Part shown: in pieces, positions 3,598 to 58,698 of the stretch
Layout of the letters: every line of letters starts with the position of its first letter
How positions within the stretch are numbered: position 1 is the first letter of the stretch
Assembly: GCF_012912105.1 (NCBI RefSeq)
Contig: NZ_QMEA01000015.1
Location: 1-64,000, forward strand
Source of the DNA: Brasilonema sp. UFV-L1
GTDB taxonomy: Bacteria > Cyanobacteriota > Cyanobacteriia > Cyanobacteriales > Nostocaceae
Direction of reading: 5' to 3'
DNA length: 64,000 nt
The notes under the pieces: generated by a model
The model's input: only the letters and a program-made list of their open reading frames with translations
Database searches by the model: none
Told to the model about the DNA's origin: nothing
Made by a program: the position numbers and the translations under genes

Positions 3598-3795
3598 AAA
3601 ACCTATACAGAACTAGTCAAAACTCGGCAAATCTGTACAACGTCGGAGCGTGCAGACTAAGTCTTAAGTGACTACGTTGAGATGGTTACGACACCTACAA
3701 GTAAACGCCAGCTTGTAGCTTCTGTCGAAGACGGTTAAGGAATTAGTGAACAGGTTTATAGCTATAGTGCTGTCTTCCTAACAAGCCATCTCAAC
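3590..3795 (+). ncRNA. Multi-helix structured RNA candidate (IscB omega-RNA-like?)
   Basis: Several perfect helices nest here. CGCTCCGA (3590-3597) pairs with 3643-3650. GTTGAGATGG (3676-3685) pairs with CCATCTCAAC (3786-3795), with G-U and U-A pairs continuing inward. CTACAAG (3695-3701) pairs with CTTGTAG (3712-3718). GAAGAC (3727-3732) pairs with GTCTTC (3772-3777), with a TATAGCTATA palindrome inside. The architecture recalls the HEARO/omega RNAs of IscB elements, but no iscB follows. The assignment rests on layout and memory of the family only; the strand is assumed. Confidence 0.35.
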
Positions 3796-3878
3796 ATTGT
3801 CGAGGCAAACTTAACTGAGAAATCAGGCTGGCAGAATATGCCATATAAGCAGGTCTTGTTTGGCAAGACCTGTACAAA

Positions 3879-4520
3879 ATGACCAGAAATGTACAGATGT
3901 GTCCAGCAATCAAGTTACAGTTTCTAGCCCCAAAAACGCTCACCGTTGAAGATTTTCTCTCCCAATACCGAGACAATCCTCGCTATGAATTGGCAGACGG
4001 AGAATTAATTGACATGGAACCCACTGGTCCTCATGAAACGGTGAGTGGTAAAATTGCAACGCAAATTGGTATCTATCTTGTTGCAGAACAACTTCCCTGG
4101 TTTATTCCTCGCACTTGCTTAATTTACCCCTTCGCAGATGCAGCCACAATTCGTCGTCCTGATGTCGTGGTTCTCGATGAAACCGTTCTCAACCGTGAAC
4201 CCCTTTGGGAGCGAGAACCCGTAATTACGCTGGGACGTTCCATTAAATTGGTGGTTGAAGTTGTTAGCACCAACTGGGAAACTGACTACGCTCGCAAAGT
4301 TGAAGAATATGCGCTCTTAGGAATTCCTGAATATTGGATTGTGGATTATCGAGGATTGGGTGGTGTGGCATTTATTGGTAAACCCAAACAACCTACTTTT
4401 ACTGTTTGTCAATTGCTTGAAGATACTTATAATCAACAACAATATCGGTTAAACCAAGCAATTAACTCGCCACTTTTGCCGCGTCTTCAACTTCGCTTAG
4501 ATGATATCCTTCCTCGTTAA
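3879..4520 (+). CDS. Uma2-family (DUF820) putative restriction-like nuclease
   Basis: A 213-residue protein with the PD-(D/E)xK layout of Uma2 proteins, which are abundant in cyanobacteria: ELADGELIDMEPTG near residue 40, RRPDVVVLD near 103 (catalytic Asp), VVEVVS near 127 (Glu), then the lysine of ARKVEEY and GIPEYWIVD. The family is thought to contain DNA endonucleases, and many copies look mobile; the actual role is unknown. An alternative start, MCPAIK, lies 18 bases in. A 9-bp hairpin (CAGGTCTTG / CAAGACCTG, about 3851-3873) lies immediately upstream of the start. Confidence 0.85.
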   Translation: MTRNVQMCPAIKLQFLAPKTLTVEDFLSQYRDNPRYELADGELIDMEPTGPHETVSGKIATQIGIYLVAEQLPWFIPRTCLIYPFADAATIRRPDVVVLDETVLNREPLWEREPVITLGRSIKLVVEVVSTNWETDYARKVEEYALLGIPEYWIVDYRGLGGVAFIGKPKQPTFTVCQLLEDTYNQQQYRLNQAINSPLLPRLQLRLDDILPR

Positions 4521-6185: not shown

Positions 6186-6297
6186 CGACGCATTGTCCCC
6201 TAAAAAATTGGGCAGGCTTACTACTACGAGTACCCTACTACGCCGACAGATTAACAAAACAAAGCCTGCCCAATTTTTTTACGTGTAAGACCCCGCC
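6186..6297. repeat. Hairpin element, copy 1 (17-bp stem, 42-nt loop)
   Basis: It begins CGACGCATTGTCCCCTA and ends TTACGTGTAAGACCCC. Between these lies a perfect 17-bp stem (6203-6219 with 6262-6278) around a 42-nt loop. Copy 2, at 58355-58467, has nearly the same flanks and loop, but its stem differs at five positions that are all compensated on the other arm. Here it abuts the tnpB relic on its left. The right flank to 6370 carries no gene. Confidence 0.8.
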
Positions 6298-57352: not shown

Positions 57353-58698
57353 TCAACTCCCAAGCGCGTTTCTTGATTTCTTCTTAGAAGAAACCTTGCT
57401 TCCCCCTTGCCCAGAGGTAGCAATTTTTTCTTTGCCTTTACGAAGTATGTTGATTGCGGCTGCATAGTCACGTTGCAAAACACAACCACATTTACAGGTG
57501 TGCGTTCTAGTAGATAATGATTTTTTGACCATGATGCCGCATTGTGGACACTGCTGTGAAGTGTAGTGAGGTTCTACAGCTAGCGCCATTTTTCCATACT
57601 TCTGGGCAAAGTACTCTAGATAACTCCGAAACTGTCTCCATCCAGCGTCATTGATGCTTTTTGCCAGATGGTGATTACGCACCATATTCTTAACCTGCAA
57701 GTTTTCGTAGACGCATAAATCGTTAGATTGCATGACGTGACGCGCTTTCAATAAGCTGTGTTCAGTACGTTGTCTACTTATCTTTAGGTGCTTGCGTGCA
57801 TATCGGTTTCGAGCCTTGTTTCTGCCGTTCTTTCCTTTCTGCTTCTTGTAGATTCTCCGTTGAGCGTGTTTGATTTGTTTCTCGGCTTTACGCAAGAAGC
57901 GCGGATTAGGGCGGCACGTTTTGGGGGGAAGCTTCCCCCCAAAAGCTGCCTTTTCATGATGTCCGTTTGAGTCGGTGTAGAAATACTCTAAGCCAAAATC
58001 CAAACCAATTTCTTGACCTGTAGATGCAATATCTTCCCTACACTCGACGTCAACGCAAAATTGAATATAGAAACCATCTGCACGACGGACAATACGGACT
58101 CGTTTGATGGATTTAACAGGATATGTGTGAATATCCCATTTACCCATTAACTTGAGTTCCCCAATCCCTTTTTTATCAGTGAAAGTAACTCTACGTTTTG
58201 TTGGATGTAGCGACCATCCACTTGTCTTATATTCAACAGAGCGGTTGTCATGTTGAAAACGAGGATAACCCTTTTTCCCTGGTTTGTTCTTTTTACAGTT
58301 GTCGTAAAACCGAGAAATTGCAAACCATGCTCTCTCAGCAGCAGCTTGTACTGCCGACGCATTGTCCCCTAGAAAATGAGCCAGCCTTATTACTACGAGT
58401 AACCGACTACGCCGACAGATCAACAAAACAAAGGCTGGCTCATTTTCTTACGTGTAAGACCCCCGTCCATAGAATTTAAGGCAGCAACAAAGGGAAAGTC
58501 AGCGCGTAGTACCGTTGAGTATCGGCTGATGGCTGCATTGTTAATATTGTTTTCTCTAGAAGAGTCTATCCAATATCTGAGACACTTATTCCTAATAAAT
58601 TGAGTAGTTTCGATTGCTGACTCAATCGCCTGATATTGTGCTTTATTTCCTTTAGCTTTGTACTCTAAAACCAACACGCTTGACTCACCTCCTTGCAT
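57353..58698 (-). pseudogene. tnpB: TnpB RNA-guided nuclease, interrupted by a hairpin element
   Basis: The N-terminal piece (58468-58698) is YKAKGNKAQYQAIESAIETTQFIRNKCLRYW to ADFPFVAALNSM. The C-terminal piece (57353-58354) resumes at AVQAAAERAWFAISRFYDNCK. It retains RuvC Asp in GLDFGLEYF, Glu in VYENLQVKNM, zinc-finger CPQCG and CKCGC, and Asp in QRDYAAAINI, all intact. A 113-bp hairpin element separates the pieces and adds stops and a frame change. A nuclease from the second piece alone would lack the N-terminal wedge part. Confidence 0.88.
58355..58467. repeat. Hairpin element, copy 2, inside tnpB
   Basis: A 17-bp perfect stem (58372-58388 with 58431-58447), a 42-nt loop, flanks CGACGCATTGTCCCCTA and TTACGTGTAAGACCCC as in copy 1 (6186-6297). 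Boundaries come from the tnpB reading frame: codon ATG at 58468-58470 and codon GCA at 58352-58354 should be neighbours. 113 bases cannot be read through. Confidence 0.85.

Follow-up and report, generated by a model that had tools for sequence, protein, structure and literature searches.

Several classes of mobile DNA are recognised as a folded single strand, among them integron attC sites, the ends of IS200/IS605 elements and REPINs. The integron attC site carries conserved R-box sequences and extrahelical bases and is used by the integron integrase; IS200/IS605-derived elements make no target duplication and have subterminal hairpins at both ends. In the terminal hairpins of AAV and other parvoviruses (flip and flop), the inner part of the palindrome is found in both orientations, and one arm serves as the template for the other. 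The small dispersed repeats of cyanobacteria are reportedly small mobile repeats of Nostocales of ~20–30 nt, far shorter than the element described here, and the mitochondrial double-hairpin elements are short organellar hairpins said to be mobile, in which we know of no loop flipping.

Closer in kind are the REPINs and REP sequences with their RAYT transposases: they are short, non-autonomous, multicopy mobile hairpins with compensatory hairpin changes, and the accessible part of PMC3116915 describes a REPIN as two inverted copies of a conserved REP whose 16-bp ends are invariant, separated by a variable spacer. The GTAG- and CGTC-tagged palindromic repeats are likewise tagged stem-loops, some of them within genes; the GTAG-tagged ones are also recorded from cyanobacteria in the available text of PMC3733652. 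Finally, template switching at inverted repeats homogenises the arms and inverts the spacer, leaving matched arms around an inverted spacer (PMC8604942; PMC8794818, both as partially accessible). The second of these sources counts loop inversion among its patterns, and in the first the yeast spacer inversions concern spacers of 3–5 bp, against 42 nt here.

The window analysed is a stretch of 64,000 nucleotides from Brasilonema sp. UFV-L1 (contig NZ_QMEA01000015.1, positions 1 to 64,000). The original prediction placed two copies of a hairpin element at 6186-6297 and 58355-58467, with five stem differences that are each compensated on the other arm. Both copies lie at these positions, their limits refined to 6188-6294 and 58357-58463, and the five differences fall at pairs 2, 8, 9, 11 and 15 of 18 (positions 1, 7, 8, 10 and 14 in the earlier 17-bp count), all 5/5 compensated; 4 of the 42 loop bases are changed. 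Each copy consists, in order, of the left end ACGCATTGTCCCC, 1 base, an 18-bp arm, a 42-nt loop, the other 18-bp arm, 2 bases and the right end CGTGTAAGACCCC:

6188..6200, + strand: copy 1, left end ACGCATTGTCCCC, with CG directly before it
6202..6219, + strand: copy 1, left 18-bp arm
6220..6261, + strand: copy 1, loop of 42 nt, direction A
6262..6279, + strand: copy 1, right arm of the stem
6282..6294, + strand: copy 1, right end CGTGTAAGACCCC
57353..58698, - strand: tnpB-type gene of an IS605-like element, split by copy 2, with open frames on either side
58357..58369, + strand: copy 2, left end, with CG directly before it
58371..58388, + strand: copy 2, left 18-bp arm, differing from that of copy 1 at five compensated positions
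58389..58430, + strand: copy 2, loop of 42 nt, direction A
58431..58448, + strand: copy 2, right arm of the stem
58451..58463, + strand: copy 2, right end CGTGTAAGACCCC, with CG directly after it

The CG after the right end of copy 2 is possibly a 2-bp duplication of the CG before its left end. In the interrupted gene, Pfam recognised OrfB_IS605 and a Cas12f1-like TNB domain (L002:502-1500, window 57356-58354). With up to 3 mismatches allowed, the ends occur nowhere in the window besides the two copies. The left end has a chance mean of 0.09 in the window, and 0 of 100 shuffles held two matches; for the right end the mean is 0.34, and 4 of 100 shuffles did. Folded as DNA, the four strands of the two copies gave z values of -3.9 to -5.5, and for each strand 0 of 200 shuffles folded equally well. 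Elsewhere in the window, a HEARO RNA (Rfam RF02033, 95.8 bits) lies at 3649-3815 on the + strand, followed by a 213-aa open frame (3879-4520) that, by eye, is unlike the usual HNH/IscB-type gene.

The prediction had proposed that a wider search should reveal many copies with variable stems and paired arms, and this is what was found. A BLAST search with copy 1 against the genome that contains the window (the window genome) returned 88 pieces. The 13-base left end has 64 exact occurrences there and 21 more with one mismatch (85 in all, against 1 for a control with the pattern reversed and one mismatch allowed), and the right-end pattern occurs 95 times (control 1). Seven relatives hold 92 exact left ends in total, 3 to 28 each, with 0 for the control. 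Among 40 genomes searched, the window genome included, 10 match at E <= 1e-6: the window genome, 6/6 congeners, 2/17 other members of the family and 1/16 from other families of the order. In the GTDB collection, a two-end pattern requiring exact ends found 44 loci, all titled Scytonema or Brasilonema. Copy 2 also matches three plasmid records, all from Brasilonema or Scytonema; a phage origin was rejected, as this copy had no match among phage records. The family is best explained as a non-autonomous mobile element of ~107 bp carried by Scytonema and Brasilonema, with two conserved unpaired ends, a stem of ~15–19 bp that is almost always perfect and an asymmetric loop of ~42 nt.

For the comparisons below we assembled 150 distinct elements (63 from the window genome and 87 from relatives), a set biased to well-kept ends by allowing at most one substitution per motif. 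From these 150 we excluded 12 with stems below 11 bp, a group that included several nested or composite elements, as well as 8 repeated sequences, leaving 130; removing a further 42 with stems below 14 bp or loops outside 36–50 nt left 88 'simple' unique elements. An autonomous partner with like ends was not found in the window genome when the lists of left ends (up to one mismatch) and right ends (exact) were compared by eye, a comparison that a weaker-ended partner would escape. One candidate with ~1.8 kb between its ends (L163) was rejected as an ordinary copy split by an IS with ends of its own; that IS contains a 385-aa frame which looks transposase-like by eye.

The family is mobile, as its copy number, its spread and its empty sites show. 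The comparison with empty sites that the prediction had proposed for recognising target duplication yielded empty counterparts for about 20 element sites, with alignments of uneven quality, and short target duplications. Near-identical copies lie at unrelated sites (L027/L028, L094/L103 and L089/L106). A T stands two bases before ACGC in 74/130 elements, and in 57 of these 74 the right side also fits TNA; the middle base then agrees on both sides in 47/57 (Fisher test for C, p = 5e-6, related copies included), a count that is partly non-independent since some copies are near-identical. The CG type comprises 48/130 copies, of which 39 have CG on the right, and its duplication is less clear than that of TNA. 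By eye, three sites (L043, L047 and L070) show TGA or TCA on both sides when filled but TTA in the diverged empty relative; the element may bring this base with it, or the target may have differed beforehand.

Elements touch 71 open frames that are 80 aa or longer; Pfam was run on 40 of these, drawn at random. Matches were obtained in 18/40, of which 14 were transposase, TnpB or IscB-type (some of one IS lineage) and the remaining four RecD2, nSTAND1, DUF433 and DUF2949; 22/40 had no match. One position in a DDE_5-type transposase gene (GCTGT/TGA) is occupied repeatedly, by L017, L065 and L113, with unlike stems and loop directions, which suggests a preferred target; L017 was placed in this gene by flank similarity, its own Pfam scan having given no match. 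At another locus (L120, G000:C33), near minus-strand position 804, both ends stand nearly back to back and the whole hairpin is missing, next to what by eye looks like a tnpB reading frame.

Pairing in the stem is nearly perfect in spite of great sequence variety. The 88 simple elements have 59 stem sequences, and only 3 of their 1,524 stem pairs (0.2%) are mismatched, compared with 26% for arms taken from different copies. The pairs comprise AT 532, TA 347, CG 325, GC 317, GA 2 and TT 1; no G-T wobble pair occurs among the 1,524. Across all 130 elements, 12/2,152 pairs are mismatched, confined to 5 elements. The stem finder maximises pairing; a fixed-frame check on the 130 elements, with a shift of 0–2 bases allowed, gave 14/14 pairs in 106, at least 12 in 120 and 5–11 in 10. 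Unpaired changes at a comparable rate would have spoken against the prediction, and they are rare: pairwise stem differences number 6,791 compensated and 72 uncompensated (~1%), counts inflated by relatedness. The two-sided changes were observed between different insertions only.

Covariation was also measured on an alignment of the nine copies with an A-sense loop among 16 that share one layout. All 162/162 cells are standard pairs, 7/18 pairs change two-sidedly and 0 one-sidedly, and sliding the partner by 1 to 3 columns lowers pairing to 35–67%. Four of five covariation measures exceeded all 500 shuffles; for the fifth, 'further pair types', 193/500 shuffles of the nine copies were as high. 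Correctly oriented loops diverge by 28% on average (2,211 pairs, 67 elements), so loop sequence changes even though the two arms almost never mismatch.

That loop had been predicted to be constant. It is nearly unchanged in the two window copies, both of direction A; in the family it is constant only up to direction, a property that the window's pair of copies could not reveal. Since the loop is asymmetric, one can tell which way it points relative to the ends, and across the family this direction is near-random: against a reference loop, 33 of the 88 simple elements are A, 34 are B and 21 are unclear. For pairs with a decidable relative direction, loops at an identity of 0.85–0.90 are the same way round in 75 cases and inverted in 78, and at 0.90–0.95 in 27 and 23; at 0.95 or above, 14 are the same and 7 opposite, so direction is not fully forgotten. 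Both directions, 4 A (L042, L061, L066 and L077) and 3 B (L058, L078 and, on the plasmid, L064), occur in the 'nearly complete genome' record of Scytonema sp. NIES-4073 and its plasmid record.

At one clear site, the loop has been inverted in place with the stem kept. The window genome (L011) and a congener (L146) share an insertion in an IS630-like gene (Pfam DDE_3), with identical 17-bp arms and flanks that are 89–92% identical. Their loops agree in 20/48 columns as they stand and in 36/42 once one is turned. A third, partial copy at this site (L202) has the same stem core and its loop in the L011 direction, and the gene region is empty in the congener G003. Over loop and flanks, 27/243 positions differ (~11%), against 0/34 arm bases; by simple arithmetic, the latter has a chance of ~0.02 under free arm drift.

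A second site with the same stem and a reversed loop is less clear. Two copies in the window genome (L018 and L019, which carry an additional insert) and one in a congener (L056) have a common 15-bp stem inside a host repeat of ~200 bp, and a loop stretch matches in 39/40 bases, but only when one of the loops is reversed. Loop similarity here exceeds that of the flanks (84–91%) and the left borders differ, so a related copy may have replaced the earlier one or inserted independently. The host repeat is dispersed, and several of its copies, such as L255, L257 and L276, lack the element; its outer parts look complementary by eye. Other candidate pairs were set aside. Stems differ within L001/L007 and within L065/L113, and in the former the loops differ far more than the flanks; these pairs are not used as proof of change in place, because independent insertion or replacement is as likely. 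L188/L189 was dropped because the whole element looks converted, with 1/93 loop bases differing where the flanks differ by 11–14%.

A sister type of 14 elements, 13 from genus g8 (G013) and one from Scytonema tolypothrichoides (L053), has a like loop between quite different ends (GGGAGATCC...AAGTGCC), with 8 loops in direction A, 5 in B and 1 unclear. By eye, three target bases agree in 11 of the 13 sister-type copies with both flanks. The stems vary yet pair, at 18–19/20 in 13/14 elements; the exception, L212 from G013, has 12/20 pairs and arms from two stem types, and is likely a recombination intermediate. A related copy in G025 (L142) lies outside these counts. By eye, the same inner hairpin lies between ends of a third kind (ACGCATTGGGACAAAG or similar) in L158 (G001), L105 and L122. 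Small GC-rich hairpins, among others of the type GCGTAGCG...CCCC..GGGGC, sit inside the loops or arms of L017, L025, L030, L036, L104, L204, L207 and others, and elements are also nested in each other.

Within the stem, the inner nine bases track loop similarity (Mantel r 0.33, 0/1,000 permutations as high, 86 elements). The outer eight do not follow the loop (r 0.04) or the inner stem (r -0.04, the same 86 elements), and weakly follow the ends (r 0.13, p 0.03). Since the inner stem varies with the loop but not with the outer stem, inner hairpins appear to be exchanged as blocks, which may account for part of the compensated variation and perhaps much of it.

Two-sided stem changes are normally read as the mark of a functional RNA or of selection on structure. 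Here, near-perfect covariation together with near-random loop direction and the lack of wobble points to a mutational cause at the DNA level, and we infer that this is where pairing is maintained. The explanation we favour, at a probability of roughly 0.57, is that template-switch copying between the arms keeps them paired and inverts the loops, that exchange of inner hairpins adds diversity and that a transposase acts in trans. The hairpin would form during replication and the polymerase would switch template; one arm would then be copied from the other, removing mismatches, and a polymerase copying through the loop and back would leave the loop inverted. Ectopic exchange of the inner hairpin between copies would spread new stem combinations, and a putative transposase acting in trans on the ends would move the element. 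Two of the three candidates named in the original prediction, a mobile palindromic element and arm conversion, agree with these findings, and both probably hold. Selection for a perfect hairpin at transposition may add to the matching of the arms; acting at each transposition, it would also yield perfect arms in young copies. It is quite improbable that the flipping is instead enzymatic and part of each life cycle, with a nickase acting at the unpaired ends, self-primed copying, one arm remade and the loop inverted in each round. If that were true, the stem sequence would be free, and the way the element replicates, not selection, would ensure pairing, an arrangement that resembles parvovirus flip and flop, but in a cellular, gene-free element of ~107 bp.

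Known structure-recognised hairpins tolerate bulges and mismatches, which counts against a rival account in which a transposase recognises the folded single strand, only perfect hairpins move and the loop changes direction through ordinary recombination. We regard this account as unlikely, though the family is indeed mobile, with near-identical copies at unrelated sites, and REPINs are known mobile hairpins with compensatory changes (PMC3116915, accessible part). At the L011/L146 site, however, loop and flanks differ by 8–14% and the arms by 0/34 in an element that stayed put, and a folding requirement alone inverts no loops. Rather doubtful as a full account is ordinary recombination, in which inner hairpins are swapped as blocks with the arms as homology and the loop enters either way. 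The joint travel of inner stem and loop independently of the outer stem, the two different arms of the hybrid L212, the composite and nested copies and the L018/L056 loops that are more alike than their flanks all speak for such exchange, but it leaves unexplained the origin of 59 paired stems, as well as the inverted L011/L146 loops, whose divergence is similar to that of their flanks.

A functional RNA with its stem under selection, the third candidate of the prediction, is very improbable and fits badly. It would show covariation in the usual sense, as this family does, but there are no G-U pairs in 1,524, loop direction is near-random and 14/18 of the Pfam-matched host or adjoining frames are transposase-type. 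Rfam gave no match to the element in the whole window at gathering scores, or in four loci at E up to 0.5. With the loop inverted in about half of the copies, no wobble, transposase-type hosts and no Rfam match, a strand-specific RNA is unlikely. Assembly artefacts are hardly credible as the source of the two directions. Inverted repeats of 17–18 bp could let assemblers flip the loop, and most of the genomes are drafts, but both directions occur in the 'nearly complete genome' record and plasmid of NIES-4073, and the element is about one short read long, so that reads can span it. Arm copying by template switching, together with inner-hairpin exchange, remains our preferred reading.

With dozens of copies per genome, such a family provides natural replicates from which to measure the rates of arm homogenisation and spacer inversion by template switching, and it warns that covariation alone can mislead searches for RNA families. 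We found no description of a family of this kind, or of any mobile element whose loop direction is randomised, in the accessible parts of the literature searched, which subscription papers mostly lay outside. Each of its ingredients has a known precedent, in mobile hairpins with compensatory changes and in the two footprints of template switching.

The tests for a miniature non-autonomous mobile element gave many unrelated sites with empty counterparts and a target-site duplication. Terminal inverted repeats as in a MITE of a DDE transposon are absent, and by eye ACGCATTGTCCCC and CGTGTAAGACCCC are not mutually inverted. The element has one central hairpin and a duplication of 2–3 bp, unlike IS200/IS605-derived elements, and its stems are, by eye, without the bulges of integron attC sites. 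Where AAV and other parvoviruses have viral ends and a Rep nickase, the hairpin here is internal and has no known nickase. By eye, it is a single hairpin with different ends, without the two inverted REPs and GTAG-type tag of REPINs and REP sequences; conservation in this family lies in the unpaired ends and the loop, with a variable stem and a loop that flips. The GTAG- and CGTC-tagged repeats have stems of 5–13 bp and loops of 2–20 nt in the available text of PMC3733652, compared with ~15–19 bp and ~42 nt in this family, in which a CGTC end (on the other strand) arises only where the base before ACGC is G. The template-switch products described in the accessible parts of PMC8604942 and PMC8794818 are single loci, with few-base spacers in yeast genes, or in rRNA genes, whereas matched arms and inverted spacers are found here in a mobile family with a 42-nt spacer and a near-random direction.
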